Shown here piece by piece: positions 1 through 12,993 of a DNA stretch of 12,993 nt. The notes under the pieces are model-generated. The model was given only the letters and a program-made list of their open reading frames with translations. It was not told the origin of the DNA and ran no database searches. Source of the DNA: an uncultured Magnetococcales bacterium (GTDB lineage: Bacteria; Pseudomonadota; Magnetococcia; Magnetococcales; Magnetaquicoccaceae); assembly GCA_903913345.1 (NCBI GenBank), contig CAIWLA010000726.1, positions 1-12,993 of the forward strand, read 5' to 3'. The translations under genes were made by a program, and so were the position numbers. Positions within the stretch are counted from its first letter, which is position 1. The number at the start of each line of letters is the position of its first letter.

Positions 1-1
1 G

Positions 2-64
2 ACCGAAAAAGGGCTGCAAGAGTGGGTGGAGCCTCTTCTGTCCACGACATCCGCCGAAAAATGA
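2..64 (+). CDS. C-terminal end of an upstream gene, unidentified (partial)
   Basis: Frame 2 is open from the window edge and ends at the TGA at 62-64. The 20 visible residues (ending ...EPLLSTTSAEK) look like an ordinary soluble C-terminus. The frame stops about 15 bases before the cutA start, as expected for the preceding gene of an operon. Too little is present to name a family. All three frames are open in this short stretch, so the frame choice is tentative; it rests on the sensible residue composition and the position of the stop. Confidence 0.4.
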   Translation, partial: TEKGLQEWVEPLLSTTSAEK

Positions 65-78
65 GGAGCGAAGAGGGC

Positions 79-414
79 ATGTCTGGTCTGGAAGCCGATC
101 TGATTCTGGTCTGGACCACCTTCCCGGAGGAGGCGTTGGCCATCTCGGTGGCCGACAGTCTGGTGGATGAACAGTTGGCCGCTTGTGTGCATGTATTGCC
201 GGGTGGACGATCCGTCTATCGCTGGCAAGGCGAAATCCATCGGGATGCGGAATGGACCCTGCTGATCAAGACGAGGCAGGCGGTCTATCCCCGGTTGGAG
301 GCCCGTCTGCGGGCACTGCATCCGTATGATGTCCCGGAAATTCTGGCCACCCCGGTGACCCGGAGTCTGCCCGCCTACCAGGAATGGCTGATGGCCGTTG
401 TTCGAGAACCGTGA
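79..414 (+). CDS. cutA: CutA family divalent-cation tolerance protein
   Basis: A small CutA1 protein of 111 residues, close to the usual 105-115. CutA1 proteins form very stable trimers with a ferredoxin-like fold and are linked genetically to copper/divalent metal tolerance; the molecular role is not settled. Visible family signatures are the N-terminal strand with WTTFPEE (residues 12-18), the EQLAACV segment (31-37), SVYRWQGEI (45-53) and HPYDVPEI (81-88). I chose the ATG at 79 because AGGAG lies at 64-68 and the CutA fold starts directly after it. An in-frame ATG at 61 and a GTG at 22 would only add a non-conserved leader. The stop is followed five bases later by the ccdA start, which suggests co-transcription with the thiol transporter; this is often seen in proteobacteria, where cutA sits beside dsbD/ccdA-type genes. 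Confidence 0.9.
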   Translation: MSGLEADLILVWTTFPEEALAISVADSLVDEQLAACVHVLPGGRSVYRWQGEIHRDAEWTLLIKTRQAVYPRLEARLRALHPYDVPEILATPVTRSLPAYQEWLMAVVREP

Positions 415-419
415 GGAGT

Positions 420-1157
420 ATGGATGTGGAAAATGTCTCGGTGGCGGCCGCGTTGCTGGCTGGGCTGCTCTCTTTTGTCTCGCCCTGCGTCCTGCCGTTG
501 GTACCCGCCTATATCAGTTTCATGACGGGGGTCTCCGTCACGGGGATGCGCACGGGGGAGGAGGGGGCGGGACGCTGGCAGGTCGGTCTGCACAGCCTCT
601 TCTTCGTGTTGGGATTTTCCACCGTCTTCATTGCCCTGGGGGCCTCGGCCACCTTTCTCAGTCGCCTCTTGCTGCAACACATGCAGTTGTTTGCCCAGGT
701 GGGCGGCGGTCTGATCATCCTCTTCGGGCTGCACTACATGGGCCTGTTGCGTGTGGATCTCCTCAACCGGGAGGCCCGATTCAATCCGCAAAAAAAACCG
801 CCGGGTCTGCTGGGGGCCTATCTGATCGGTCTGGCCTTTGCGTTTGGCTGGACCCCTTGTGTGGGGCCTATCCTGGCCGGTATTCTGGCGATAGCCGGTG
901 CCCAGGAGAGTGTCTATCAAGGGATTCTCCTGCTGGCGATCTATTCGGCGGGGTTGGGTATCCCTTTCATCCTGGCCGGATTGGCCATCAACCGTTTTTT
1001 TCAATTTTTCACCCGCATTCGCAGCCATTTGCATCAGGTGGAGAAGGTGTCCGGTGCCTTGCTGGTGGCGGTCGGTGCGTTGATACTGTTCGGCAGTTTT
1101 AATCAATTGTCCGTTTGGCTGATCCAGTGGTTTCCCTGGTTGGCCTCTGTGGGATGA
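420..1157 (+). CDS. ccdA: CcdA/DsbD-type cytochrome c biogenesis thiol-reductant transporter
   Basis: An inner-membrane protein of about 245 residues that passes reducing equivalents from cytoplasmic thioredoxin to periplasmic thiol proteins for cytochrome c maturation or disulfide reduction. It shows six hydrophobic stretches. The redox cysteine pair typical of the family is visible: Cys23 in FVSPCVLPL in the first segment and Cys147 in GWTPCVGPIL in the fourth. Length fits stand-alone CcdA; there is no N-terminal periplasmic domain or C-terminal thioredoxin domain as in full DsbD. The ATG at 420 is only one base from AGGAG (414-418), so the GTG at 426, seven bases from it, may be the true start and costs just two residues. 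The gene is tightly spaced between cutA and pyrF. The symbol could also be given as a DsbD-like transporter. Confidence 0.9.
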   Translation: MDVENVSVAAALLAGLLSFVSPCVLPLVPAYISFMTGVSVTGMRTGEEGAGRWQVGLHSLFFVLGFSTVFIALGASATFLSRLLLQHMQLFAQVGGGLIILFGLHYMGLLRVDLLNREARFNPQKKPPGLLGAYLIGLAFAFGWTPCVGPILAGILAIAGAQESVYQGILLLAIYSAGLGIPFILAGLAINRFFQFFTRIRSHLHQVEKVSGALLVAVGALILFGSFNQLSVWLIQWFPWLASVG

Positions 1158-1170
1158 GGGGGAGGCGCGT

Positions 1171-2127
1171 ATGACGGGTTTTGCGGATCGGTTGATCGAC
1201 CGGGCGATGGTCTGCCAATCGCGTGTGATTGTGGGTCTGGATCCGGATGTGGTCCACTTTCCCGCCTATCTCCAGGACCAGCTGCGCCGCCATCCCACCG
1301 AGGAGCAGTTGGAAGAGGTGGTGGTGGCGTTCAATCGGGTGGTGATTGAGGCGACGGCAACGGAGGCGGTCGCCTACAAACCGCAGGCCGCTTTTTATGA
1401 ACAGTATGGACTGGCGGGCATGAAGGCATTGCAGCGGACCCTTGCCTTGCTGCGTGATCAGGGGCTGCTGGTGATCATGGACGCCAAGCGCAATGATGTG
1501 GCCCATACGGCGGGGGCCTATGCGACGGCCTGGCTTGCCCCGCGCCATCCCCTGTTCGGCACCCCCAATCCGTGGCAGGTGGACGCCATCACCCTCAACG
1601 GGTATCTGGGGAGCGATGGGATTTATCCCTTCCTGGAGAGCAATGCCGAGGCGGGGCTGTTTGTCCTGACCCGCACCTCGAATCCCTCGTCGGGTGAATT
1701 GCAGGATCTGCCCGTGTGGGAGGAGGGGATTGGTCGGGGGGCAACGGTGGCGGAAAAAATGGCTTCTCTTGTGCATGAGTGGGGTCAATCGGGGTTGGGT
1801 CGGCACGGTTTTTCGTCGGTGGGCATGGTGGTGGGGGCGACCTATCCAGAGGTGGCTGGCCGGTTGCGGCATATCGCGCCGAACGCCCTGTTTCTGATGC
1901 CCGGTGTGGGGGTGCAAGGGGGCACTTTGGAGGCGATTGTGGCCGGGGCCGGGGCGGGTGGCATGGGGGCGTATGCGGCGTCATCCCGTGGCCTGCTCTA
2001 TCCCTTTCATCCAGAAGAGTTGGCGGACGCGCGCTGGTCGGAGCAGGCCACGGTGCGCATGGCCTCTGCCGCCCGGACCTTGCGCCGGGCCATTCAGGAA
2101 AAAGTGGGTTCTGCCTCGGCCCGGTGA
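1171..2127 (+). CDS. pyrF: Orotidine 5'-phosphate decarboxylase, type 2
   Basis: Catalyses the last step of UMP synthesis, decarboxylation of orotidine 5'-phosphate, as a cytoplasmic TIM barrel. The catalytic Lys/Asp cluster is DAKRND at residues 104-109. GLDPD (22-26), YKPQAAFYE (69-77), TLNGYLG (141-147), the VLTRTSNPSS region (165-174), VGATYPE (221-227) and the phosphate-binding MPGVGVQGG (243-251) match the longer type 2 enzymes rather than the ~230-residue E. coli form. At 318 residues it is at the long end of that group. The start ATG is preceded by GGAGG at 1161-1165, and only 13 bases separate it from ccdA. It is probably the last gene of this unit, because a 220-base intergenic region follows. 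pyrD lies at the other end of the window on the opposite strand. Confidence 0.95.
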   Translation: MTGFADRLIDRAMVCQSRVIVGLDPDVVHFPAYLQDQLRRHPTEEQLEEVVVAFNRVVIEATATEAVAYKPQAAFYEQYGLAGMKALQRTLALLRDQGLLVIMDAKRNDVAHTAGAYATAWLAPRHPLFGTPNPWQVDAITLNGYLGSDGIYPFLESNAEAGLFVLTRTSNPSSGELQDLPVWEEGIGRGATVAEKMASLVHEWGQSGLGRHGFSSVGMVVGATYPEVAGRLRHIAPNALFLMPGVGVQGGTLEAIVAGAGAGGMGAYAASSRGLLYPFHPEELADARWSEQATVRMASAARTLRRAIQEKVGSASAR

Positions 2128-2239
2128 GGGTACAGCACGGCGGATCCCCTCGACCGGGCAATCCACTGTGTACTCTGAAAAATACATTGCATTTTTCATT
2201 GGGAATTGTCATTCTAGCGGGCAAGTGTGCGTGTATGGG
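2128..2239. other. Intergenic region with imperfect hairpin after pyrF
   Basis: This stretch holds an imperfect dyad: GTACA near 2130 pairs with TGTAC near 2172, with an inner GGAT/ATCC pairing. It could end pyrF transcription, but no T-run directly follows the stem, so it is not a convincing intrinsic terminator. No coding frame of interest was seen. Confidence 0.3.
2176..2198. repeat. AT-rich inverted repeat between pyrF and flgB
   Basis: TGAAAAAT at 2176-2183 and its exact reverse complement ATTTTTCA at 2191-2198 are separated by seven bases. The 8-bp perfect dyad lies about 65 bases upstream of the promoter candidate for the flagellar operon. It could be a regulator-binding site or part of a terminator after pyrF; the sequence alone does not decide. 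Confidence 0.5.
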
Positions 2240-2269
2240 TTGGCCGATGGGAGAACGACAAGGTATAAT
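2240..2269 (+). promoter_or_regulatory. Candidate sigma-70-type promoter for the flagellar operon
   Basis: A perfect TATAAT at 2264-2269 has TTGGCC (4 of 6 matches to TTGACA) at 2240-2245, with an 18-base spacer. Transcription would begin near 2276 and give a leader of roughly 70 bases rich in T (2277-2306) before flgB. The match is good for the -10 and modest for the -35. It is inferred from sequence only. Confidence 0.45.
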
Positions 2270-2347
2270 ACAGTTCTTACCTGTTGTTTTCTTTGTTGTT
2301 TTTTGGTGTCTGGATTGCCGACGTCCAACGTTGATCGGGAGGATGAG

Positions 2348-2761
2348 ATGGCTGAGTTGGGTTTGCTGGGGCCTGCCGGGACGTTCAAGTCCAATCTTTT
2401 GGACTTGCGTCAGCAGCGTCAGGAGATTATCTCCTCCAATGTAGCCAATGCGAATACCCCTGGCTACAAGGCGCAACGGTTTGAATTTGAGAACGTTCTG
2501 AAGGATTCCCTGCCGCCTCTGGACGAGTTGCCCATGGCGCGCACGGCGGCGCAACATTTGCCCAAGGGTTATTCTGCTCCGGTGGCCGGGGAGCTTCAGG
2601 CGGTGGAGACCTCCGTTCCCAAGGGGGATGGCAACAGCGTGGACATGGAACAGGAGATGGCCCAGCAGGCGGCCAACCAACTGTTGTACAATTTTGCAGC
2701 ACAATCATTGAACAGTCAGATTGGCACATTGCGTATGGTCATCACGGGCAATGTGCAGTAA
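2348..2761 (+). CDS. flgB: Flagellar basal-body proximal rod protein FlgB
   Basis: A component of the proximal rod in the periplasm, exported by the flagellar type III apparatus. It has 137 residues, the normal size for FlgB. The N-terminal rod-protein signature is clear: SSNVANANTPGYKA (residues 30-43) followed by FEFENVL. The C-terminal helix with MEQEMAQQAANQLLYN and ...RMVITGN is typical of the axial coiled coil. The start ATG follows GGGAGGA (2337-2343) at good spacing. An ATG at 2343 is out of frame, and the longer in-frame extension into the T-rich leader has no conservation signature. It is the first gene of the flagellar cluster, with flgC 30 bases downstream. Confidence 0.95.
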   Translation: MAELGLLGPAGTFKSNLLDLRQQRQEIISSNVANANTPGYKAQRFEFENVLKDSLPPLDELPMARTAAQHLPKGYSAPVAGELQAVETSVPKGDGNSVDMEQEMAQQAANQLLYNFAAQSLNSQIGTLRMVITGNVQ

Positions 2762-2791
2762 CACCCGATTGGGACAGACCAGGGGGTTGTG

Positions 2792-3217
2792 ATGGATTTT
2801 TTGACATCGTTTCAAGTAACCGCCTCTGCCTTGACGGCGGAGCGTTTGCGGATGAATATAACGGCTGAAAATGTGGCCAACGCGCAAACGACACGCACGG
2901 TGGAGGGGGGTCCGTACAAGCGTCGGGATCCCGTCTTTGTGGCCCAACCGTTTGACGAAATGTTGAGCCAGGAGCAGATGGCCGGTTCGACCGGGGTGGC
3001 GGTTGAGCGGATCCATGTGGATGAGAGACCCCCGCGGCGTCAGTATGATCCGGGCCATCCCGATGCCAAGGCGGATGGCTATGTGGAGATGCCGAACATT
3101 GATACGGTGACGGAGATGGTCAACATGATGTCGGCGACCCATGCCTACGAAAACAATGTGACCGTGTTGAATGCTTCCAAGGCCATGGCCCTGAAGGCAT
3201 TGGAAATTGGTCGTTAA
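2792..3217 (+). CDS. flgC: Flagellar basal-body rod protein FlgC
   Basis: The second proximal rod protein, 141 residues, as usual for FlgC. The rod-family N-terminus has the ANVANAQTTRT-like signature (residues 27-37, here preceded by NITAE), then PYKRRDPVF. The C-terminus has the VNMMSATHAYENN ... NASKAMALKALEIGR helix conserved among FlgC/FlgG-type axial proteins. A GTG at 2789 directly precedes the ATG at 2792; the ATG was preferred because AGGGGG (2781-2786) is then five bases away. It sits between flgB and fliE with short gaps, consistent with one polycistronic message. Confidence 0.95.
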   Translation: MDFLTSFQVTASALTAERLRMNITAENVANAQTTRTVEGGPYKRRDPVFVAQPFDEMLSQEQMAGSTGVAVERIHVDERPPRRQYDPGHPDAKADGYVEMPNIDTVTEMVNMMSATHAYENNVTVLNASKAMALKALEIGR

Positions 3218-3232
3218 GGGGGAGGTATACAG

Positions 3233-3550
3233 ATGTCCATTCAGGGCGTTTCCAGTACCCCATTGCCCAGCCTGCTCTCTTCATTGACCACCGATGTGGT
3301 CAGCGCGGGGAAGGGGGGCGTTTGGGAGTCGTTTTCCACCATGTTGGCGCAACAGGTCAAGGAGACCGATCGCTTGCAGAAGGAATCCAGTCATTTGACT
3401 GAACGGGCCTTGTTGGGTAATGCCGGGGTGAGTATTCATGAAGCCCAGATTGCCAGTTCCGAGGCGGAACTGCATTTGCGCCTCTTGCTCCAGGTGCGCA
3501 ACAAGGCTTTGGATGTGTACCACGAAATCATGACCATGCCGACAGCCTAG
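3233..3550 (+). CDS. fliE: Flagellar hook-basal body protein FliE
   Basis: FliE is the small adaptor between the FliF MS ring and the rod, and is needed early for export. This copy has 105 residues, close to the usual ~100. The diagnostic C-terminal half is present: SIHEAQIASSEAELHLRLL with VRNKALDVYHEIMTMP (residues 66-103), matching the family pattern of a VMIA..kA.lslqll..vRNKlv.AYqEIMrM type helix pair. A strong GGGGGAGG (3218-3225) lies eight bases from the ATG. It follows flgC by 15 bases. After it comes the only large gap in the operon, 123 bases before fliF. Confidence 0.95.
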   Translation: MSIQGVSSTPLPSLLSSLTTDVVSAGKGGVWESFSTMLAQQVKETDRLQKESSHLTERALLGNAGVSIHEAQIASSEAELHLRLLLQVRNKALDVYHEIMTMPTA

Positions 3551-3579
3551 GCATGTCTGGCCTCTGTATGGTATTGGGC

Positions 3580-3595
3580 TGGCACGTGGTACGCA
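3580..3595 (+). promoter_or_regulatory. Candidate sigma-54 (RpoN) promoter before fliF
   Basis: TGGCACG at 3580-3586 is an exact match to the -24 consensus. After four bases comes ACGCA (3591-3595) where TTGCA is expected, so the diagnostic GG-N10-GC spacing is kept but the -12 box has two mismatches. It lies about 80 bases before the fliF ATG in the one larger gap of the operon. A perfect palindrome CACCGGTG follows at 3610-3617. RpoN commonly drives middle flagellar genes, which makes it plausible, but it could be chance. Confidence 0.35.
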
Positions 3596-3673
3596 CGATG
3601 GGGGGTTTTCACCGGTGTGAATGCCGTACATCCCGATATTATGCCTGTGGAAAAAATTGGGAAATGAAATACC

Positions 3674-5314
3674 ATGGCTGAATCTCCTGCTGTTGTTCCG
3701 CAGACCTCTTCGAACCTGATGGATTCTGTGGTCCGTTTCATGTCGCAGTTGCCTTTGGGTGGTCGCAACGGTCTTTTATTGGCCATTGGGGCGACCGTAT
3801 TGGCACTGTCCATCATGATCTGGTTCGCCACGCGACCCGCCTACAAGATGCTCTTTTCTGGATTGCCCCAGGAAGAGACAGGGCGCATCATCGAACATTT
3901 GAACAAAATGAAGGTTCCGTACCAGATTGGGCCGGGTGGTGCATCGGTGGATGTACCGGCGGATCGGGTCTATGACCTGCGTCTGGAGCTGGCCACCCAG
4001 GGGCTTCCCAAGCAGGGGACCGGGGTGGGTTTTGAGTTGTTTGACAAGGGCAACTTGATGGGGATGACCGATTTTGTGCAGCGCATGAACTACCAGCGTG
4101 CGCTGCAAGGGGAGTTGGCCCGTACCATCGAAAGCATCTCTGCTGTGCATACGGCTCGTGTTCATCTGGTTTTGCCCAAGCCCTCCCTGTTTGTCACCGA
4201 GGCCCGTCCGGCGACCGCTTCGGTCATCATGGAGCTGGCCCATCCCCTGCAGCCCAAGCAGGTGGAGGGGATTGTCCATTTGGTGGCGACGGCGGTGGAG
4301 GGGTTGGAAGAGAACAATGTGACCTTGCTGGATGGCAAGGGCAACCTGATCGCCGGTGGTCGCACCGCCTCGAAGGATGGCCGCATGGGGGCGGATGAGA
4401 CCCTGACCATGCAGCAGCAGGTGGAAAAGGGGCTGGAGGATCGTGCCCAGGCCATGTTGGACAAGGTGATCGGGGTGAGTTCCAGCGGTGTCAGCAAGAG
4501 CATTGTGCGCATTACCGCCGAGTTGGATCTCTCCCGTACCGAACGCCAGGAGGAAATTTTTGATCCGGTTGGTCAGGGTGGCGTCCCCCGCAGTGAGCAA
4601 TCGGTCAACGAGAGCAGTCGGGGTGATTTTGGGGTGGGTGGTACGCCCGGTGTGCGTGCCAACGATGCCAACGATGCCGCCAAGAGCGGGGGCAACGGCT
4701 CTTCACAGGTGCGCAATACCGAACGAGACACCACCAACTTTGAAATTTCCAAAACCGTCAACAAGATCCTGATGCCGGTAGGGACCATCAAACGTCTCTC
4801 GGTGGCGGTACTGGTGGATACACCGGAAGAGAGTCCGACCGGTGACAAAACGGGCAACAAGAAACGTTCCGAAGAGGAGATGGCGCGCCTGCAAAAGATT
4901 GTCGAGCGGGCGGTGGGGTTTGACGGCAAGCGGGGCGATACCATTGAGATGGCCAGTGTACCGTTTGAACGGGTGCTGACCTCGGAAGATACGGCTCCCC
5001 GGTTTTGGCAGTCTGCCGAGTTCTGGTTGCAATTGGCGTTGGCCATTGCCATCCTCTCGCTGCTCATTCTGGTCCTGAAACCGATGATGACCGAGTTCCT
5101 GATGGGGGAAAGGGTGGCGGAGAGTACGGGTATTCCGGCGGCGGTGGCGGCGTTGGATCAGCAATTGGTGGCCGAGGGTGTGGGTGCCATGCCGTCTGAA
5201 GAGCCGTTGCGGGTACGGACACCAGACCGCAGCATCAAAATGACCCAACAGATGATCATGGACAACCCGGAAGAGGCGAGGGAGATCATCCGCAGTTGGA
5301 TGGCGCAGGAATAA
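3674..5314 (+). CDS. fliF: Flagellar MS-ring protein FliF
   Basis: FliF builds the MS ring in the inner membrane, the base on which rod, switch and export gate assemble. The 546 residues match the usual 520-580. It shows a first membrane helix at about residues 33-52, then the YscJ-type ring-building domain (FSGLPQEE at 61-68, the ATQGLPKQGTGVGFELFD region at 107-124, MNYQRALQGELARTI at 138-152, ARVHLVLPKPSLF at 161-173). A flexible Gly/Ser/Asn-rich loop follows at about 300-350, then a second membrane helix at about 449-468. The C-terminal tail (about 517-546, PEEAREIIRSWM) is the FliG-binding segment. The Shine-Dalgarno is weak (GGGA at 3658-3661, 12 bases away). A tiny out-of-frame ATG at 3664 opens six codons across the start. 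Confidence 0.96.
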   Translation: MAESPAVVPQTSSNLMDSVVRFMSQLPLGGRNGLLLAIGATVLALSIMIWFATRPAYKMLFSGLPQEETGRIIEHLNKMKVPYQIGPGGASVDVPADRVYDLRLELATQGLPKQGTGVGFELFDKGNLMGMTDFVQRMNYQRALQGELARTIESISAVHTARVHLVLPKPSLFVTEARPATASVIMELAHPLQPKQVEGIVHLVATAVEGLEENNVTLLDGKGNLIAGGRTASKDGRMGADETLTMQQQVEKGLEDRAQAMLDKVIGVSSSGVSKSIVRITAELDLSRTERQEEIFDPVGQGGVPRSEQSVNESSRGDFGVGGTPGVRANDANDAAKSGGNGSSQVRNTERDTTNFEISKTVNKILMPVGTIKRLSVAVLVDTPEESPTGDKTGNKKRSEEEMARLQKIVERAVGFDGKRGDTIEMASVPFERVLTSEDTAPRFWQSAEFWLQLALAIAILSLLILVLKPMMTEFLMGERVAESTGIPAAVAALDQQLVAEGVGAMPSEEPLRVRTPDRSIKMTQQMIMDNPEEAREIIRSWMAQE

Positions 5315-5386
5315 AACCGGTTGCTTGGATACAACATCTTGACCATTGGCTGGATGCGTGGTTGATGCAGACGGATGGGGTTGCGT

Positions 5387-6457
5387 ATGGAAACACAGGG
5401 ATGGGAAAGCGGTGGGGGTGATTCGGTTTCCCGTCGCGGGGCACCAAAGATGCGGTTGAGCGGCAAGGAGAAGGCGGGTATTTTTCTCCTGTCGTTGCCG
5501 GATGAGGATGCCAAAAGGATCATGGAGGGGATGCAGGAAAACGAGTTGCGTGAGCTTTCCCGGGTCATCTCCCGCATGGGTGTCATGCCGCCGGATGCGG
5601 TGCAGGCGGTGCGGCAGGAGTTTCTTGACAAGTTTGAACTGAAAATGTTTGACGTTCGTGGTGGCCAGAACAAGGTGAAGGATCTGCTGACCAAGACGTT
5701 GGGCAAGGATCGTGCCCGTCAACTGTTGAAGGATGTGCAGTCTGGTCCGAAGAGTACCCCCTGGGAGGTCTTGAATGCCATGGAACCGGCCCTGGTGGCC
5801 ACCTTTCTGGCCAGCGAGCATCCCCAGAGTGTCTCCCTGATTGTGTCGCAGTTGCAACAGGAACATGCGGCCCTGGTGATCGACCATTTGGCCACCGAGA
5901 TGCAGCAACAGGTTGTCTATCGGATGGCCCGGATGAATACCCTGCCGCCGGGTGCCCTGGAGGATATTGAGGCCTCTCTGTTGACCGAATTGAATGCCCT
6001 GGGTGTGGCCCGCAGCGGTCGGCAACAGGAGGGTGGTGGGACCAAGAAGGTGGCCGAACTGCTCAACCTGATGAGCCGGGAGATTTCGGACAAGTTGTTG
6101 GCCTATCTGGACGAAGAGGACAATCCGCTGGCGGAGAGTGTGCGCAAGGAGATGTTCCTGTTCGAGGATCTCCTGCTCATGGACGATCGCAGTTTCCAGA
6201 CGTTGCTGAGAGAGGTTTCCAACGACGAATTGCTGACGGCCATGAAGGGGGCCGACGATCGGCTCCGGGAGAAATTTTTCCAGAACATGTCCGAACGGGC
6301 GGCGGAAATGTTGCGCGAGGATCTGGAACTGCTCGGTCCGGTCAAGGTGGTCGATGTGGAAACGGCCCAGCAGGCCATTCTCAAGGCGGCGCGGCGTCTG
6401 GAGGCGGAAGGTTCCATTGTGATCATGGGCAAGGGTTCCGATGACCTGGTGATGTAG
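5387..6457 (+). CDS. fliG: Flagellar motor switch/rotor protein FliG
   Basis: FliG sits on the cytoplasmic face of the MS ring and transmits stator torque; it also binds FliM for switching. The N-terminal FliF-binding domain (about residues 25-115) is followed by the ARM-like middle domain with EHPQ at 144-147, the MFLFEDL motif at 256-262 (MFxF hinge) and the C-terminal charged torque helix (KGADDRLREKF at 287-297, MSERAAEMLREDL at 301-313). The key charged positions of E. coli FliG appear kept in sign: Lys287, Arg304, Glu311-Asp312, Lys320 (Arg in E. coli). I chose the ATG at 5387 because GGATGGGG lies at 5373-5380. The ATG at 5375 adds four residues, and one at 5450 would remove a poorly conserved N-terminal leader of about 21 residues. 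The length of 356 is slightly long. Confidence 0.95.
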   Translation: METQGWESGGGDSVSRRGAPKMRLSGKEKAGIFLLSLPDEDAKRIMEGMQENELRELSRVISRMGVMPPDAVQAVRQEFLDKFELKMFDVRGGQNKVKDLLTKTLGKDRARQLLKDVQSGPKSTPWEVLNAMEPALVATFLASEHPQSVSLIVSQLQQEHAALVIDHLATEMQQQVVYRMARMNTLPPGALEDIEASLLTELNALGVARSGRQQEGGGTKKVAELLNLMSREISDKLLAYLDEEDNPLAESVRKEMFLFEDLLLMDDRSFQTLLREVSNDELLTAMKGADDRLREKFFQNMSERAAEMLREDLELLGPVKVVDVETAQQAILKAARRLEAEGSIVIMGKGSDDLVM

Positions 6458-6491
6458 TCGTTGGGATATTGCGGGCGAGAGGAAGGCAGCA

Positions 6492-7631
6492 ATGGCGGTT
6501 TTCTTGGACGGGATCATCAAGCAAGAGGCGTTGGATGTCTTGCCGCAACGGGTCTCCTTCCAGGATCTGGTCGGGGATGACCGGCGAAATCAGGGGGAGA
6601 TGTTTGTCCGCTTTTTGCCCGGTGGTCGTCTGCCTGAGCGGCCGGAAGAGCGCGAGCCACCGGAAATCTCCGAAGAGGAGTTGCATCAGAGGCGTCTGGA
6701 GACCATTGAGCGGGAGACCTATCAAAAGGCCTTTGCGGCGGGCGAGGAGGCGGGTCTGGCTCTGGGCGAACAGACGATGGAGCACGAGATGGCGCGTCTC
6801 TTGCCGCAGTTTGAGTCGGTGCTGCGGCAGTTGGATGCCCTTCCCAAGCGGGTTTTTGCCAGTGCCGAACGGTTTTTGGTGGAAACCGCCATCATGATGA
6901 CCCGTGCGTTGCTGGCCCATGAATTGACGATCAATCCCGAGGAGATTGCCCATCGGGTGCGGCGGTTGCTCGAACAGTCTGCCGGTCGTCGGGATATTGT
7001 CATCCATCTGGCCCCGGACAATGCCGCCTTGTTGCAAAATTCCGGTGAGTTTGAGTCGTTGCGGATTGAAGAGGACCCTTACATGGCTCTCGGATCGGTG
7101 CGTATGGAGAGCGATTTTGGGGGCATCGAGGATAATCTGGAACGGCAGTTGGCCGAGATGGAAGCGGGTTTGCGTGATTATTTGCAGGATCGTCTGCAAG
7201 CCAGTGGTTGTGATGATTTAGCCCTTTCTGCCCGGCAATTTGCCGAGCGGGCCTCGAAGCGTCCGTTGTCCCTGCCTGTCAAAAATCCCTCTTCCCAGGA
7301 AAGACCCTTGGCACACTCGCCCATCTCTGCGGATGGGGAGGGTTTTCCCCGTCCTGTTCAGCCGGTGCAGTTGGGGGATATTGCGGGTGCCCTCGCCGAT
7401 GGTCACGATCAGGAGGCGGCCTGGGTGGATGAAGGGGGTGCGGTCGCGGAGTCGTGGGAGGAGGAGGTTTCCTGCATGGACGAGACGATTGTCTCGACGG
7501 CCACGGGTCGGGTGGGTGCCGGGCAATGGGGTGGGGGTGAGGAGGCCGATTTCCGTGCTCAGCCTGATGCCATGGAAGAGATCGAGCCGGTTGCAGTACA
7601 GCCGTTGTCCCGTGACGATGAAAACGTTTGA
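6492..7631 (+). CDS. fliH: Flagellar export ATPase regulator FliH with long C-terminal tail
   Basis: A FliH/YscL-type stator of the flagellar export ATPase; it dimerises and binds FliI at the cytoplasmic base. Residues 1-237 look like FliH: a variable N-terminus, charged helix with small-residue repeats (AFAAGEEAGLALGEQ, 80-94), a helical region (100-162) and the C-terminal fold DIVIHLAPDN ... LRIEEDPYMALGSVRMESDFGGIEDN (168-215) with a final coiled helix to 237. Residues 238-379 are a low-complexity, acidic, Gly/Pro-rich extension that the normal ~230-250-residue family lacks. Its frame stays open and overlaps the fliI start by 14 bases, so it is translated unless processed. AGAGGAAGG lies just before the ATG. 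The gene follows fliG by 34 bases. Confidence 0.88.
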   Translation: MAVFLDGIIKQEALDVLPQRVSFQDLVGDDRRNQGEMFVRFLPGGRLPERPEEREPPEISEEELHQRRLETIERETYQKAFAAGEEAGLALGEQTMEHEMARLLPQFESVLRQLDALPKRVFASAERFLVETAIMMTRALLAHELTINPEEIAHRVRRLLEQSAGRRDIVIHLAPDNAALLQNSGEFESLRIEEDPYMALGSVRMESDFGGIEDNLERQLAEMEAGLRDYLQDRLQASGCDDLALSARQFAERASKRPLSLPVKNPSSQERPLAHSPISADGEGFPRPVQPVQLGDIAGALADGHDQEAAWVDEGGAVAESWEEEVSCMDETIVSTATGRVGAGQWGGGEEADFRAQPDAMEEIEPVAVQPLSRDDENV

Positions 7632-8949
7632 TATTCCCTGGGCCGATTATCAGGCATCGGCGCGGGCCGGTTTGGGTTTGTTGCGCACGGGCAAGGTTTC
7701 CCAGGTGGTGGGGTTGCTGGTGGAGGGGGATGGGCCAGCGGCTTCGATTGGTGACATGTGTGAGATTTTCCCGGAAAACGGGGACCACCCGATCAAGGCG
7801 GAGGTGGTGGGATTTCGCAACAAGGCGTTGTTGTTGATGCCTTTGGGTGCCTTGCGTGGCATTCATCCGGGCAGTCGGATTGTCTCCCATGGTCGCCCGG
7901 AAGATGTGGCGGTGGGCGAAGGTTTGTTGGGACGGGTGATTGATCCGATGGGGGGGCCTTTGGATGATGGTCCCCTTTTGGTGCTTTCGGAACGGATGCC
8001 GTTGTATGCGGATCCGGTCAATCCCATGGTGCGTCGCCGTATTGACACGGTTCTGGATCTGGGGGTACGGGCCATCAACGGCCTCTTGACGGTTGGCCGG
8101 GGGCAGCGGGTTGGCATCTTTTCCGGGTCTGGTGTGGGCAAGAGCACCCTGTTGGGCATGATGGCGCGTTATACGGCGGCGGATATCAATGTGATCGCGC
8201 TGGTGGGGGAGCGTGGTCGTGAGGTGGTGGAGTTTATTGAAAAGGATTTAGGCCCGGAGGGGATGGCGCGTTCGGTGGTGGTGGTGGCCACCTCCGATCA
8301 ACCGCCCTTGTTGCGTTTGCGGGCGGCCTTTCTGGCGACGGCCATTGCCGAATATTTTCGTGCCAAACAGAAACATGTCTTGTTGTTGATGGATTCCGTG
8401 ACCCGTTTTGCCATGGCGCAACGGGAGGTGGGTTTGACCCGTGGCGAGCCACCCACCACGCGCGGGTATCCCCCTTCCACCTTCATGTTGTTGCCTCGTC
8501 TATTGGAGCGGACCGGGCGGGACCATGGCGATGGGAGCATTACGGGGCTGTATACCATCCTGGTGGAGGCGGACGATCTGCAAGATCCGATTGCGGATGC
8601 GGTTCGGGGTATTCTGGATGGTCATATTGTCCTCTCCCGCACCCTGGCGGCGGCCAATCAGTATCCGGCGATTGATGTCCTGGAATCCCTCTCCCGTTTG
8701 ATGGAATCCCTGGCCGATCCCAAGCAAAAGCGGTGGGCGGGTCGTCTGCGGGAGGCCCTGGCCACCTACAGTCGGGCCGAAGATATGGTCAATATTGGTG
8801 CCTATGCCGCTGGCAGCAACCCACAGATCGACAATGCCCTGAAGCTGATCACCCCCATTCGTAATTATCTGCGCCAACCGGTGGAACAGGGGTGTACCCT
8901 GGAGGAGAGCATTCGGCAACTGGGGGTGATTTTTCCGGGGTCGGCGTGA
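7618..8949 (+). CDS. fliI: Flagellum-specific export ATPase FliI
   Basis: The hexameric ATPase that energises flagellar protein export, related to the F1 beta subunit. Of 443 residues, about 1-100 form the N-terminal beta barrel. The ATPase core has Walker A SGSGVGKST (169-177), the catalytic-Glu motif GERGRE (197-202) and Walker B LLLMD (255-259) followed by SVTRFAMAQRE. The type III ATPase segment GEPPTTRGYPPSTF (276-289) and ADDLQDPIAD (318-327) separate it from F1 and Rho. The ATG at 7618 lies inside the fliH 3' end, 14 bases before the end of the fliH stop, with no Shine-Dalgarno upstream, so translation is probably coupled to FliH. It is the last flagellar gene in the window; fliJ, its usual follower, is not seen. 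Confidence 0.97.
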   Translation: MKTFDIPWADYQASARAGLGLLRTGKVSQVVGLLVEGDGPAASIGDMCEIFPENGDHPIKAEVVGFRNKALLLMPLGALRGIHPGSRIVSHGRPEDVAVGEGLLGRVIDPMGGPLDDGPLLVLSERMPLYADPVNPMVRRRIDTVLDLGVRAINGLLTVGRGQRVGIFSGSGVGKSTLLGMMARYTAADINVIALVGERGREVVEFIEKDLGPEGMARSVVVVATSDQPPLLRLRAAFLATAIAEYFRAKQKHVLLLMDSVTRFAMAQREVGLTRGEPPTTRGYPPSTFMLLPRLLERTGRDHGDGSITGLYTILVEADDLQDPIADAVRGILDGHIVLSRTLAAANQYPAIDVLESLSRLMESLADPKQKRWAGRLREALATYSRAEDMVNIGAYAAGSNPQIDNALKLITPIRNYLRQPVEQGCTLEESIRQLGVIFPGSA

Positions 8950-9030
8950 AGGATGCGTTGGTTGGCCTTTCACGGGAGCCCCGATCCTTTTGTGAGGAGA
9001 CGCGCAGCATCGAGTTCAGGGAGCATGGCC

Positions 9031-9309
9031 ATGTTGAAAAGCTACGAAGCGGTTCTTGATCATGGTACCATTCGCTGGTTGGGTGCTCCGCCTGCTGTCG
9101 AGGAAGCACGTCTCATTATTACCGTATTGCCCGAAAAAGCCACAAAAGACCAGAACGGTCATCCGTGCCGTCGACCACCGGAAGGGATGAAAGGCAGACT
9201 ACGTATCGTGGGTGATATGGTCACCTCGCCCTACTCCGAAGAAGAGTGGGCATCCATGTTCGAACGGACCTCTCGGCAACTCGAAGGTGAACCAGAGGCT
9301 TTCAAATGA
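9031..9309 (+). CDS. Antitoxin-like small protein (VapB-type partner of the adjacent PIN remnant)
   Basis: A 92-residue protein with an N-terminal segment MLKSYEAVLDHG-IRWLG (residues 1-17), ARLIITVLPE (26-35) and a C-terminal KGRLRIVGDMVTSPYSEEEW (54-73). This layout, a small beta domain, a charged linker and a conserved 'GD(I/M)V..P..EEEW' tail, resembles small antitoxins commonly encoded just before PIN-domain toxins (from memory of the family, not searched). The ATG at 9031 has AGGGAG (9018-9023) at seven bases. An ATG at 9025 is too close to it, and the longer frame from 8953 adds a leader without family features. The stop TGA overlaps an ATGATG, the usual coupling point for a toxin start, but the downstream toxin is in another frame. 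Confidence 0.65.
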   Translation: MLKSYEAVLDHGTIRWLGAPPAVEEARLIITVLPEKATKDQNGHPCRRPPEGMKGRLRIVGDMVTSPYSEEEWASMFERTSRQLEGEPEAFK

Positions 9310-9546
9310 TGGATTCCGAGTGTTGATTCTGGATACGCACATCTGGATTTGGTGGGTCAACCAGGATGCGCATCTGCCTGGGGTGATTGCGAAGCGAATC
9401 GAGCGGGGTGGAGAAAGGTTGGCCATCTCCAGCGCATCGATTTATGAGGCATTGCTGCACATTCGACGTGGACGTCTCATTGTCGAAGGGCCACCGGACG
9501 AGTGGCTTCAGATCGCCACCGAGGATGCTGAGATCACGATTCTGAC
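9309..9546 (+). pseudogene. Truncated PIN-domain (VapC-like) toxin remnant
   Basis: The frame holding codons 9314-9546 encodes RVLILDTHIWIWWVNQ, the N-terminal PIN motif with the first acidic residue (Asp at 9332-9334). It continues with ISSASIYEALLHIRRGRL, the second acidic position (Glu at 9446-9448). PIN toxins are RNases of about 125-140 residues needing three or four acidic residues. Similarity stops after ...DAEITIL near 9540, so the C-terminal half with the remaining acidic residues is absent. The frame continues to 9721 but only as out-of-frame sequence under hicB. No ATG begins the frame: the ATGs at 9306 and 9309 are one base out of register, which points to a small deletion near 9317. 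GTG at 9287 or 9320 could still serve. I infer a non-functional remnant. Confidence 0.65.
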
Positions 9547-9891
9547 ATGGAGAACAAAGAGAGTTTCAACGGATACACGCTGTCTGTCTGGCAGGATGCC
9601 GATGGAGACTGGATGGCCTGCCTGGAGGAGATGTCATCCATCTCGGTATTTGGTGCGTCTCCAGAAGAGGCTGTGTCAGAACTCAGCATGGCGTGGGCGG
9701 CCGCCAAGGAGAGCTTTATAGCCAACGGGGAGGCCGTTCCGGTCGCTCCAAGCCGCAAACAATACGGCGGGCATTTCAATGTCCGAATCGCAAAAACACG
9801 GCACCGCAGGCTGGCTGTTGAGGCCGCAAGGGAAGGGGTCTCACTCAATTCGCTGGTGGCTGGCAAGTTGTCAGCCACCACATCGGTTTAA
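9547..9891 (+). CDS. HicB-family antitoxin-like protein (orphan)
   Basis: A 114-residue protein in two parts. Residues 8-70 fit the HicB partial RNase H-like fold: GYTLSVWQDADGDWMACLEEM, then the SVFGASPEEAVSELSMAW helix. Residues 76-110 (HFNVRIAKTRHRRLAVEAAREGVSLNSLVAGKL, quoted in short parts: FNVRIAKT, LAVEAA, GVSLNSLV) form an Arc/MetJ-like ribbon-helix-helix DNA-binding region. In complete systems HicB neutralises the HicA mRNA interferase and represses the operon. No HicA-like frame is present on either side, so this looks solitary. There is no clear Shine-Dalgarno. The start coincides with the point where the PIN toxin homology breaks off, suggesting a recombination join. It is convergent with the gene at 9920, with only 28 bases between. 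Confidence 0.75.
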   Translation: MENKESFNGYTLSVWQDADGDWMACLEEMSSISVFGASPEEAVSELSMAWAAAKESFIANGEAVPVAPSRKQYGGHFNVRIAKTRHRRLAVEAAREGVSLNSLVAGKLSATTSV

Positions 9892-9919
9892 TCATGCCGA
9901 CACCTGGCTGCATTTCCCC

Positions 9920-11254
9920 CTACACCGCCTCCCTTCTTCGCACAAACCGGATATGATTGGCGCGATAGGTGGCATCGCGTCCGGGTGTCACCTCGAATTC
10001 GATCAGATCGCCAGGGGCCGGGGTCTGTTCCGGGTCCGCCAGTTCGGAAATGTGCAGATAAATATTGTTGCGCCGACACTTGGCAAAACCATACCCCTTG
10101 TCGGCAAAATAGACGGTGACAATGGCCTGTTCGGTGGTCCCCAACACCAGATTGTCGCCCGTTTCGGCCTGCTGGGAGAGCTTTTCCCCCTGGTGCAGCG
10201 TGATCTCCGTGGCAATCAATCCCTCGGTATCCGATCCCGACCCCACCACAAATTCCACCACATCATGGACCTGCAACGGCAGATCACGACTGATATGGGG
10301 CAAAATAAAAAAACGAATCACCTCAGATGCCTGATTTCGAATGGAAATATGACCGGAACCATTGGCCTCCAGTGAGGCAATCTGGCCGATCAGACGACTC
10401 CCCATCACCAGTACAGAACAGGCCTGCGGGCGACCCTCCTTGCCGGGCTTGATCACAAATTGCACCGGATCATTCTCCTGAATGACCGCCTGTCCAACGA
10501 CATAACTCATATGGAAGTAGACTTCTTTGTATTCGTTCTCTTCCGTATAATACTGGATAAATCCAAACCCCCTCTCCCTTTTGAAGGCCGTGATGGTGCC
10601 AAAATAGAGGGCTTCCGCCTCTGGAGGGGGTGTTTTGTCCACTCGGCACTCGCCCATCGGATGGGTGGTCAGATAGTGGGTGGGGGTGGCTTGCCAAAAA
10701 ATGGAGTCGCTGCGGACGGTGCCTTTGATGCCGTGCAGCGGGCAGGGGGGCAGTTCGACAAAGTAGCCCTCCAGGGGACGTTGCTGCCGGAGACCCGCCT
10801 GGGAATGGATTTCAGGCAGTTCCGGGGCGGAGTCGGGGGAACGGTGCAACAGGATGGCATGGCCGTGCGCCCGGTCGCAGAGGGCCTGGGCAATATCCAC
10901 CGCCGTGCTCAGATAGTCGAACACCCCCTCATCCACGGCCAACCGTACAAAGGAACCCGTGGCGATCCCCATTTTTCCGGAGAGGCCCGTTTCCGCATAG
11001 GGCAACCGTTGGTGCAATGCCTCCTGAATCTCGATGGCGGCCTGCACCGCCAGGGCCGGTTGCTCGAAGGCCGTCAGGAGTCCATCGCCCAGGGATCGGA
11101 CCATTTCACCCTGCCTGGCCTGGATCACCTCTTTGGCAATGGTGTAAAAGGCGGTGAGCAACCGCGCCCAATCCCCTCCTGCCAGAGCGGTTTTCAAGAG
11201 ATCGGCATTGTGAATACGGACGCAACAAAAGGTCTTGTAAGGGGTGGTGATCAT
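9920..11254 (-). CDS. Degenerate class III nucleotidyl-cyclase domain fused to three cold-shock domains
   Basis: A 444-residue fusion. Residues 1-187 follow the cyclase homology domain order: N-terminal strand ([12 protein letters not shown]), helix, [17 protein letters not shown] (50-66), GIATGSFV (96-103), [14 protein letters not shown] (112-125), GHAILL (131-136) and the final HGIKGTV (174-180). One metal-binding Asp (D57 of GDG) is kept, but the first Asp position seems to be Arg13, the substrate Lys is Arg53, the catalytic Asn is Asp120 and the Arg is Ala124, so cyclase activity is unlikely. Residues 216-284 are a cold-shock domain with RGFGFI (228-233) and VYFHMS (245-250). Residues 287-355 are a degenerate copy (GHISI). 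Residues 374-438 are a third copy with KGYGFAK (386-392) and IYLHIS (398-403). The ATG overlaps the isomerase stop as ATGA and lacks a Shine-Dalgarno. I infer an RNA-binding protein with a regulatory pseudo-cyclase head; it is cytoplasmic. Confidence 0.8.
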
Positions 11255-11898
11255 GGGGGTGTGGAACCATCTCCTGCCGGATGTGGCGTTGTCTGGGGTG
11301 GCTGGGTGGCCGTTTGTCGGCGTGCGGACTGGATCACCACTGGTTCCACCGGGACATCGCCGCTCTTGGTCTTGACGGTCGCGATGCGATCCAGCACCTC
11401 CATTCCCTGCACCACTTTGCCGAAGACGGCATAGCCAAAGTCCCGACTGCCATGATCCAAAAAGGTATTATCGACCACGTTGATAAAAAACTGCGCCGTG
11501 GCACTGTCCTTGGCCGAGGTGCGCGCCATGGCGAGGGTGCCGCGCCCGTTTTTCAGGCCGTTGTCGGCCTCATTGCGAATGGCCGGTTGGGTGGGCTTTT
11601 GCTGCATGTCCGGGGTAAAACCACCACCCTGAACCATGAAGCCCTTGATGACCCGATGGAAGATGGTGCCATCATAAAAATGGGCATCGACATAATCGAG
11701 AAAATTTTTGACGGAAATCGGTGCCTTTTCCGCATCCAACTCGATGGTTATATCGCCCAGGGAAGTGGTCAGAACCACCATGGTATGTTCTCCTGTCTGA
11801 AGGTGTGGGTGCCCGGCCTCTGGATGGTCGGCATGGGCGAATGATGAGATGAACAGTGTCAACAGGGATAAAATACTATAAAAAAGGCGACGAATCAT
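11251..11898 (-). CDS. Cyclophilin-type peptidyl-prolyl cis-trans isomerase, exported
   Basis: Catalyses cis-trans isomerisation of X-Pro bonds, here probably in the periplasm. The N-terminus is a Sec signal peptide (MIRRLF..., hydrophobic core to residue 20, AHA at 21-23 as cleavage site). The cyclophilin domain spans about 39-192, with the active-site [13 protein letters not shown] (80-92; Arg82, Phe87, Gln90), the MART(S)[12 protein letters not shown] strip (125-140) and [17 protein letters not shown] (154-170). A Pro/Thr-rich tail of about 23 residues follows ([17 protein letters not shown]). The ATG at 11898 was chosen; a TTG two codons upstream is the alternative. GGAGA lies about 10 bases before it. 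It is PpiA/PpiB-like, and the export signal favours the periplasmic type. pyrD lies 66 bases upstream and the cyclase/CSD fusion overlaps its stop. Confidence 0.9.
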
Positions 11899-11964
11899 GG
11901 TCAAAAGATCTCCGGTTTCAGAGGGTAAAGGCTGGCAGGGCGCGGGGCGTCCAATCGGGGCAGT

Positions 11965-12894
11965 TTATGCGTTGTTCAGGGTTCCCGTCAATGCTGTCAC
12001 GTGGGCAATTTGGTGTTTTTCAAGATAAAGGGCAATGCCGGTGGCGATTTCCCCCCCCAGCAGGGGATTGCGGAACAAGGCGGTGCCGATGCCGATGGCA
12101 CTGGCCCCCACCACCAAAAATTCGATGGCATCCTCGGTGGAGGCAATGCCGCCCTGGCCGATGATGGGAATGCCGTGAGGGGCCGCCACCTGATGCAGTT
12201 GCCACACCTTGAGCAGGGCGACCGGTTTGATGGCTGGCCCGGAGAGTCCCCCCTGTCGATTGCCCAGGATGGGGCGTCGGGTGGTACTATCCACGGCCAT
12301 GCCCATCAAGGTGTTGATGGCGGAGAGGGCATCCGTGCCCGCCTCGATGGCGGCGGTGGCGATGGGGCGGATATCGGTGACGTTGGGGGAGAGTTTGGTG
12401 ATGATCGGTTTGGTGGTGGCCTGGCGCACGGCGGCCACCACCTGGGCGGCCGTGCGGGGGTCGGCCCCGAAGGCCGCGCCCCCCTCTTTGACGTTGGGGC
12501 AGGAAATATTGATTTCGATGCCATCGACCGGGCTGTCATCAAACAGTCGGGCCACGGCGGCATAGTCGTCGATCGTGGATCCGGCAATATTGGCGATCAG
12601 GCGGGTGGGCAGGTGGGCCAGTCGGGGCAGAATCCGATCGATCACAAAACGGGCACCGGGATTTTGCAGGCCGATGGCATTGAGCAGACCGCAGGGGGTC
12701 TCTGCCAGTCGGGGGGGCGGATTGCCCAGGCGGGGTTCCAGGGTGGTCCCCTTCAAACAGAGGGCACCGATGGAGGCAAAATCAAAGCCGTCCAAGGTGG
12801 CCAACTCTTCGCCAAAGCCCACGCAACCGGAGAGCAATATCACGGGATTGGTCAGAGGAATGCCCGCCAGGTTGAGGTGCAGGGCCTCGTTCAT
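11965..12894 (-). CDS. pyrD: Dihydroorotate dehydrogenase, class 1B-like catalytic subunit
   Basis: Oxidises dihydroorotate to orotate using FMN, the fourth step of pyrimidine synthesis, as a cytoplasmic TIM barrel. At 309 residues it fits class 1. The catalytic base is Cys132 in EINISCPNVKEGG (127-139), which separates it from class 2 membrane enzymes that use Ser. Other signatures are LCLKGTTLEPRLGNPPPR (46-62), AIGLQNPG (73-80), NTLMGMAVD (194-202), GGLSGPAIKPVAL (215-227) and the FMN phosphate loop IPIIGQGGI (242-250). Class 1B enzymes work with the electron-transfer subunit PyrK, which is not in the window and may lie upstream (to the right of 12993). No clear Shine-Dalgarno precedes the ATG. 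Transcription may come from beyond the hairpin repeats and continue to the isomerase. Confidence 0.95.
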   Translation of the reverse strand: MNEALHLNLAGIPLTNPVILLSGCVGFGEELATLDGFDFASIGALCLKGTTLEPRLGNPPPRLAETPCGLLNAIGLQNPGARFVIDRILPRLAHLPTRLIANIAGSTIDDYAAVARLFDDSPVDGIEINISCPNVKEGGAAFGADPRTAAQVVAAVRQATTKPIITKLSPNVTDIRPIATAAIEAGTDALSAINTLMGMAVDSTTRRPILGNRQGGLSGPAIKPVALLKVWQLHQVAAPHGIPIIGQGGIASTEDAIEFLVVGASAIGIGTALFRNPLLGGEIATGIALYLEKHQIAHVTALTGTLNNA

Positions 12895-12924
12895 CGTTGT
12901 CGTGGGTGTCTTGCTATTGCGGGT

Positions 12925-12992
12925 CCAGGGGGATCATCCCCCTGGTGGGGTCCAGGGGCAACGCCCCTGGTGGGGTTCGGGGCAAAGCCCCG
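12925..12992. repeat. Three consecutive GC-rich hairpin repeat units
   Basis: Three adjacent dyads lie 25-27 bases apart. The first is CCAGGGGGA/TCCCCCTGG (12925-12945, loop TCA). The second is CCAGGGGC/GCCCCTGG (12952-12970, loop AAC). The third is CGGGGC/GCCCCG (12978-12992, loop AAA). The spacers contain GTGGGGT and the units share a GT(C/T)C(A)GGGG core, so they are diverged copies of one palindromic element. The array reaches the window edge and may continue. It lies in the 5' region of pyrD. It looks like an intergenic palindromic (REP-like) repeat family; function unknown. Confidence 0.75.
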
Positions 12993-12993
12993 C

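Follow-up and report, generated by a model that had tools for sequence, protein, structure and literature searches.

Putative pseudo-cyclase/cold-shock fusion proteins of Magnetococcales and their enzyme-like relatives

Introduction

The nearest solved relative of the cyclase homology domain (CHD) considered here is Ma1120, a class III adenylyl cyclase of Mycobacterium avium (PDB 4wp8). Cold-shock domains (CSDs) with RNP1/RNP2-like motifs are represented by the single-domain proteins CspA, CspB and CspE (~66-70 aa), and in the eukaryotic protein Unr/CSDE1, which has nine CSDs, pseudo-CSDs are reported to set the geometry and spacing of the binding CSDs (PMC7383231). Here we describe a gene that joins a CHD to three CSDs. 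It lies in a stretch of 12,993 nucleotides from an uncultured Magnetococcales bacterium (GenBank assembly GCA_903913345.1, contig CAIWLA010000726.1, positions 1 to 12,993 of the forward strand; the window below means this whole stretch). The source genome (G000) comprises 3.63 Mb in 729 contigs. The CHD of this protein has lost its catalytic set, and the loss extends across the Magnetococcales clade of the family.

The window protein lacks the catalytic Asn, and so does Ma1120; Ma1120 differs in being active, with the metal Asp, Lys and Arg present, and in being free of CSDs. The first and third CSDs have motifs like those of CspA, CspB and CspE, but the latter proteins consist of one domain. 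With Unr/CSDE1 the window protein shares a pseudo-CSD pattern and weak profile matches to Unr structures, although Unr has no cyclase domain. Relatives found outside the order have the same domain order as the window protein, but with the catalytic residues D-K-D-D-D-R intact. The CHDs of these relatives are matched by the Pycsar cyclase profile PycC of PADLOC (P0073, E 9.8e-19; P0067, E 1.3e-13). Identification of the window protein itself as PycC was rejected (E 0.0062; no Pycsar effector among the scanned window neighbours).

Results

Domain composition of the fusion protein

The gene and its domains were placed as follows.

9920-11254, minus strand: fusion gene, putative pseudo-cyclase/cold-shock protein of 444 aa (open reading frame list, homologues)
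10652-11254, minus strand: CHD, residues 1-201, core 7-142 (phmmer/hmmsearch to Ma1120)
10400-10606, minus strand: CSD1, residues 217-285 (Pfam, 46.1 bits)
10199-10399, minus strand: CSD2, residues 286-352, pseudo-CSD without RNP1 aromatics (profile comparison, collinearity)
9941-10135, minus strand: CSD3, residues 374-438 (Pfam, 25.2 bits alone; hhalign to CSD1, 94.6%)

The open reading frame (ORF) starts with ATG, and its coordinates count the stop codon. A phmmer search of PDB sequences matched the protein to Ma1120 cyclase structures (E 2.2e-7), and a family profile of 60 homologues matched Ma1120 at E 1.8e-18 over residues 9-142. The whole-protein Pfam scan found the CSDs only and left the CHD unseen; on the CHD alone, PF00211 gave E 0.053 and 13.6 bits, under its cut-off of 21.9. 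Of the 60 family members, 21 matched PF00211 at E <= 1, and the lowest E value (1.2e-7) belonged to the outgroup P0060. The only NCBIfam match of the cyclase part was LipJ (16.9 bits vs a cut-off of 800). Residues F63, G100, A129 and W187 were invariant in all 60 aligned members. By these profile matches the N-terminal domain is assigned to the class III CHDs, and it is too diverged for Pfam.

On the whole protein PF00313 scored 68.1 bits (cut-off 27) in two stretches corresponding to CSD1 (219-282) and CSD3. Both contain RNP1/RNP2-like motifs and are ordinary CSDs in this respect. F230, F232, Y246 and H248 of CSD1 were found in 55/55, and Y388, F390, Y399 and H401 of CSD3 in 54/55 full rows of the alignment. 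CSD2 cut out alone gave no match with PF00313; hhalign aligned it to CSD1 at 82% and to CSD3 at 58%. It is collinear with CSD2 of the outgroup, which in P0060 still reads FGFIT, and in the window protein S300 and H302 replace the RNP1 aromatics. Two further hits reflect the CSD alone and were set aside: PADLOC CSD_V and NCBIfam 'retron Se72 effector', which at 37.2 bits stays below its cut-off of 82.

Catalytic sites of the CHD

Sites were counted in the alignment of 60 proteins with P0060 set apart, that is, in 59 Magnetococcales-type members including the window protein. In the HMMER alignment to Ma1120, R13 falls at metal Asp 1, the first FTD aspartate of that enzyme, and D57 at metal Asp 2. 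R53 is aligned with the Lys of Ma1120 and D113 with the purine Asp; D120 takes the Asn position (A164 in Ma1120), and A124 the place of R168.

11216-11218, minus strand: Arg13, first metal-Asp position; R 48, K 7, E 1, gap 3 (n = 59)
11096-11098, minus strand: Arg53, substrate-Lys position; R 28, K 27, thus R/K in 55/59
11084-11086, minus strand: Asp57, second metal Asp; D in 37/59
10916-10918, minus strand: Asp113, purine-specifying Asp; D in 51/59
10895-10897, minus strand: Asp120, catalytic-Asn position; D 41, E 15, Q 2, N 1 (n = 59)
10883-10885, minus strand: Ala124, transition-state Arg position; R in 16/59
10733-10735, minus strand: His174, position of the Lys of the LKG motif; K in 0/59, vs 19/22 outside the order

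The two-metal mechanism of class III cyclases requires both Asp residues. None of the 59 members has both (56 are readable at site 13), and 55 of the 56 readable members have Arg or Lys at site 13. At site 124 many members have A, L, E, Q or H. The Lys of LKG at site 174, which we take to be the phosphate-binding Lys of mammalian adenylyl cyclase, is absent throughout. The missing Asn alone means little, because the active Ma1120 has Ala at this position (PMC4215837) and Asp occupies it in each of the 22 outside relatives. The telling loss is the replacement of metal Asp 1 by Arg or Lys together with the disappearance of the LKG Lys. The loss of both the metal and the phosphate sites is evidence against ordinary binding of nucleoside triphosphates (NTPs), while K/R53 and D113, on the purine side, stay.

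An earlier note, made from the letters of this DNA, had described a class III cyclase-like head followed by three CSDs, and this domain make-up is borne out by the Ma1120 profile and by PF00313 and hhalign. Of the two Pfam profiles it had named as a check, PF00313 recovered CSD1 and CSD3 and PF00211 left the CHD below the cut-off. Its assignments of R13, R53, D57, D120 and A124 agree with the HMMER alignment; its view that CSD1 and CSD3 keep RNP-like aromatics is also supported. The catalytic losses that it listed were correct; the retained D113 and the His at LKG went unmentioned, and the Asn loss that it counted says little by itself. A nucleotide- or partner-sensing switch, the role that it suggested, is conceivable.

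A further CHD of the source genome (L009, G000:C404:6277-6597) also looked degenerate by eye, with Arg at the first metal-Asp site and His/Ala at the Asn/Arg places; it scored 20.7 bits, below the PF00211 cut-off.

Relatives outside the order and ancestry

A search with P0060 and a profile of its relatives yielded 21 further proteins, 22 including P0060 (P0060-P0073 and P0079-P0086). Those with names belong to Streptomyces, Mycobacteriales and one deltaproteobacterial metagenome-assembled genome (P0086). Seven proteins are of the P0060 kind (P0060-P0064, P0085 and P0086); alignment gave three CSDs in P0060-P0064 and P0086, and P0085 (407 aa) shows two. The other 15, of the actinobacterial type, have two CSD-like units, mostly unseen or sub-cut-off in Pfam; the named ones are from Streptomyces and Mycobacteriales. 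With hhalign, the first unit of the Streptomyces type reached 96.1% to the CSD1 profile of the window family, and the second 71.5-82.5% against CSD1, CSD2 and CSD3 (71.5% for CSD1, 82.5% for CSD3). Both domains were detected by Pfam in 9 of the 22 relatives (P0060-P0063, P0065, P0066, P0068, P0085 and P0086), P0082 and P0084 being outside our own scan. In the remaining relatives one kind of domain, the CHD in P0064 and the CSDs elsewhere, scores under the cut-off or is placed by alignment and hhalign, and we do not claim a clear CHD-CSD make-up for every outside relative.

The six sites read D-K-D-D-D-R in all 21 readable relatives outside the order; P0064, whose N-terminus with site 13 is missing, keeps the other five. 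Asp at the catalytic-Asn position was found in 22/22 of them and is therefore old. A tree of 76 rows was built by a quick method with SH-aLRT support and no bootstrap, and was rooted by choice on the actinobacterial rows, which long branches separate from the rest; five of the 59 Magnetococcales-type rows (P0013, P0022, P0052, P0058 and P0059) were left out. All 54 Magnetococcales rows in it formed one clade (SH-aLRT 100), with the enzyme-like P0086 as its sister (99). The simplest account is a single loss of the metal site on the stem of Magnetococcales, the ancestor having been enzyme-like and probably catalytically active.

Both halves of the fusion are known, and their pairing is already on public record, some relatives being called 'class 3 adenylate cyclase/cold shock CspA family protein' by JGI. 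No paper on CHD-CSD proteins was found in the literature searched, which covers few subscription journals. Mycolicibacterium crocinum and Mycobacteroides abscessus each carry a relative of the Streptomyces-type protein on a plasmid (L079, 6917-8143, and L080, 7917-9146); both are annotated as hypothetical, and a DUF6290 gene lies directly upstream of each.

Conservation and distribution in Magnetococcales

Besides the window protein, 58 Magnetococcales-type homologues were obtained, with 39-75% identity; P0060 stands at 32%. The fusion is not a chance product, because it recurs in these 58 homologues and P0060, and no inner stop was present among the homologue matches listed from relatives' genomes. 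All named homologues belong to Magnetococcales (some under genus names of the order) except P0058, labelled 'Alphaproteobacteria bacterium', which by eye is nearly identical to the protein of G018. When 120 relatives were searched, the gene was present in 34 of 47 genomes of the order, in G043 as a fragment at a contig start. The genome_contigs scan gave 28 loci, 27 of them from Magnetococcales; the remaining one, from Moraxella, matches a single CSD. No full-length match outside the order was found among the matches listed from 398 genomes of the phylum; the listed matches from outside the order cover the CHD alone.

Mean pairwise identity in the 55 full rows of the 59 Magnetococcales-type members was 0.39 for the CHD, 0.35 for the linker following it, 0.78 for CSD1, 0.55 for CSD2 and 0.71 for CSD3. 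Omega was estimated for eight gene pairs, and pairs or domains with saturated dS were excluded from the counts. The values were 0.13-0.22 for the CHD, 0-0.10 for CSD1 and 0.02-0.21 for CSD2 (six measurable pairs each), and 0-0.10 for CSD3 (seven pairs). All domains are under purifying selection; the CHD is constrained but looser, and CSD1 and CSD3 are almost frozen.

The middle CSD, called degraded in the earlier note, is so in motif (S300/H302, no Pfam match) and yet is conserved by its omega. The same note did not recognize the domain combination as standard. The fusion is not unique, given the Magnetococcales family and the wider CHD-CSD group, and the literature search noted above returned no paper on it. 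The search for the same domain order, which it suggested, returned the 58 homologues and the 22 outside relatives, the latter with an enzyme-like active site.

In another Magnetococcales genome (L075, 2320-3273, G028:C78) a CHD of the D-K-D-D-D-R type was seen by eye; its readable part contains no CSD, a KEQ repeat and a masked stretch follow, and a Fic-like gene (by eye) adjoins.

Genomic neighborhood

The fusion gene is flanked by cyclophilin and PyrD genes on one side and by PIN/HicB-like ORFs on the other.

11251-11904, minus strand: cyclophilin-type peptidyl-prolyl isomerase gene (PF00160, E 9.4e-51; start TTG according to the ORF list)

The stop codon of the cyclophilin gene and the ATG of the fusion gene share 4 bases, and pyrD (11965-12894; PF01180, E 2.6e-75) precedes the cyclophilin gene. 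Four of the 34 gene-bearing genomes were kept outside the upstream count: G030 and G043, whose DNA stops close to the gene, and G021 and G040, in which cyclophilin and fusion gene are on separate contigs. Of the 30 relatives whose upstream DNA suffices, 27 have a cyclophilin gene directly upstream of the fusion gene; further neighbours vary. A cyclophilin-fusion operon as a family-wide rule was rejected, the gene not being so placed in G018, G036 and G025 (families f2, f5 and f9). Among the 27 Magnetococcales loci of the genome_contigs scan, 24 contain the upstream cyclophilin DNA, and L061, L063 and L066 are cut off near the gene. In 17 of these 24, the cyclophilin stop and a possible fusion start share 4 bases; in the other seven, a gap of 9 to 89 bases separates the genes. 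Cyclophilin genes were present in 17 of 19 genomes checked, fusion-free genomes among them, so the cyclophilin does not depend on the fusion. The cyclophilins have a signal-peptide-like start by eye, and direct contact between cyclophilin and fusion protein is not claimed.

In G018, which represents a divergent family, a gene (L077, 3644-4546) stands beside the fusion gene in divergent, head-to-head orientation; by eye its product resembles a cyclic-nucleotide-binding protein. The fusion-adjacent cyclophilin at L040 (8916-10004) has a long C-terminal extension, with an ORF of 362 aa vs 217 in the window.

No other CHD was found near the fusion gene: the CHD profile, run on 369 ORFs of the window and 27 related loci (up to 10 kb on each side), matched 25 fusion genes alone. 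In this ORF set an antisense ORF hid two fusion genes, and one is a fragment.

Toxin-antitoxin-like pieces (window 8953-9891) separate the flagellar genes from the fusion gene. A PIN-domain ORF (9212-9721; PF01850, E 1e-5) is overlapped by a HicB-family ORF (9547-9891; PF05534, E 4.4e-11), and the PIN match stops roughly at the start of the HicB ORF; HicA was not noticed in this interval. The flagellar cluster occupies window positions ~2350-8949, with flgB, flgC, fliE, fliF and fliG by eye and FliH and a FliI-type ATPase by Pfam. Adjoining it are pyrF, a DsbD/CcdA-like gene and cutA.

Discussion

We consider the protein a former cyclase-CSD enzyme turned pseudo-enzyme, its CHD kept, in a structural or regulatory capacity, as the head of a nucleic-acid-binding protein with several CSDs, and we give this reading about an even chance. 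Within an older CHD-CSD family, the cyclase head of the Magnetococcales branch would have ceased as an enzyme and would carry out no catalysis. CSD1 and CSD3 would bind single-stranded RNA (or DNA) via their conserved aromatic faces, and CSD2 would be a non-binding spacer setting their geometry, like the pseudo-CSDs of Unr. The CHD is most likely dimeric, as class III domains are, which would bring six CSDs into one particle; a role as RNA chaperone or translation regulator may be supposed. In class III dimers, positions 13 and 120 are supplied by opposite subunits at one active site. Since R/K13 occurs together with D/E120 in 52 of the 56 readable members, we propose a lock in which Arg13 and Asp/Glu120 of opposite subunits would meet across the old active site in a salt bridge and hold the dimer, replacing metal and nucleotide. 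Taken at full length, the proposal runs that the active site was rebuilt as a lock between R13 and acid 120, making a permanent nucleotide-free dimer with six CSDs, and that it arose from undescribed CHD-CSD enzymes with RNA-controlled synthesis of cyclic nucleotides; this whole chain is rather unlikely.

Several observations weigh against the pseudo-enzyme reading and its lock. The supposed pairing of R13 with D/E120 is built on general knowledge of class III dimers; Asp120 predates the Asp-to-Arg change, the pair is missing in 4/56 members, and R vs K at 13 tracks D vs E at 120 poorly. A pure scaffold need not keep Asp57 (37/59) or D113 (51/59). RNA binding by the CSDs is presumed from motifs alone, and CSD3 when cut out falls just short of the PF00313 cut-off (25.2 bits vs 27). 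Moreover, 13 of the 47 genomes of the order are without the gene, among them the one-contig G027 and six others of at least 93% completeness; the function is therefore dispensable for the order.

The alternative that survives best is a ligand-sensing pseudo-cyclase, whose CHD would bind a purine nucleotide (NTP, cyclic nucleoside monophosphate (cNMP) or RNA nucleobase) metal-free, with Arg13 as a charge, and would switch the CSDs upon binding. We allow it a modest probability because K/R53 (55/59) and D113 are kept. The conservation ranks among 195 CHD positions agree with it in part: R13 is 29th, D113 40th, D120 43rd and R53 52nd, but D57 is only 94th and site 124, where the Arg is freely variable, 146th. 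The source genome offers a suitable setting, with 18 matches to cNMP-binding domains (17 over cut-off) and cyclases with canonical motifs by eye; the loss of metal Asp 1 and of the LKG Lys speaks against binding of this kind.

It is improbable that the degenerate CHD acts as a partner subunit, pairing with a canonical CHD, tuning that cyclase and coupling the state of RNA to cNMP synthesis. Class III cyclases function as dimers, asymmetric pairs are known, and the source genome has 9 PF00211 matches (8 over cut-off), several with full motifs by eye. Neither half-site of the fusion protein is intact, however, the metal Asp pair and the Arg both being lost, and the 369 ORFs around the fusion genes supplied no second CHD. 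A similarly low probability is given to the CHD being a jobless, decaying remnant, with only the CSDs of importance. Among the large parts, the CHD and the linker after it show the lowest conservation (0.39 and 0.35 vs 0.78 and 0.71), but the omega of the CHD is far from 1, R/K13 is newly fixed, four residues are invariant in 60/60, and the matches listed contain no inner stops. That the protein still makes a cyclic nucleotide or a related product by unusual chemistry is very unlikely: class III sites tolerate some change, Ma1120 being active without the Asn (PMC4215837), and D57 and D113 are common, but both metal Asp are needed and 0/59 have both, the LKG Lys is lost in 59/59, and site 124 is varied.

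Read as a former enzyme, the Magnetococcales family is a clean before-and-after example of how a signalling enzyme turns into a pseudo-enzyme, and enzyme-like relatives still exist for comparison. The family as a whole ties enzymes of cyclic-nucleotide synthesis to domains of RNA chaperones; on this connection the literature searched contained nothing. If the enzyme-like relatives are RNA-gated cyclases, they would represent a new input to second-messenger signalling.
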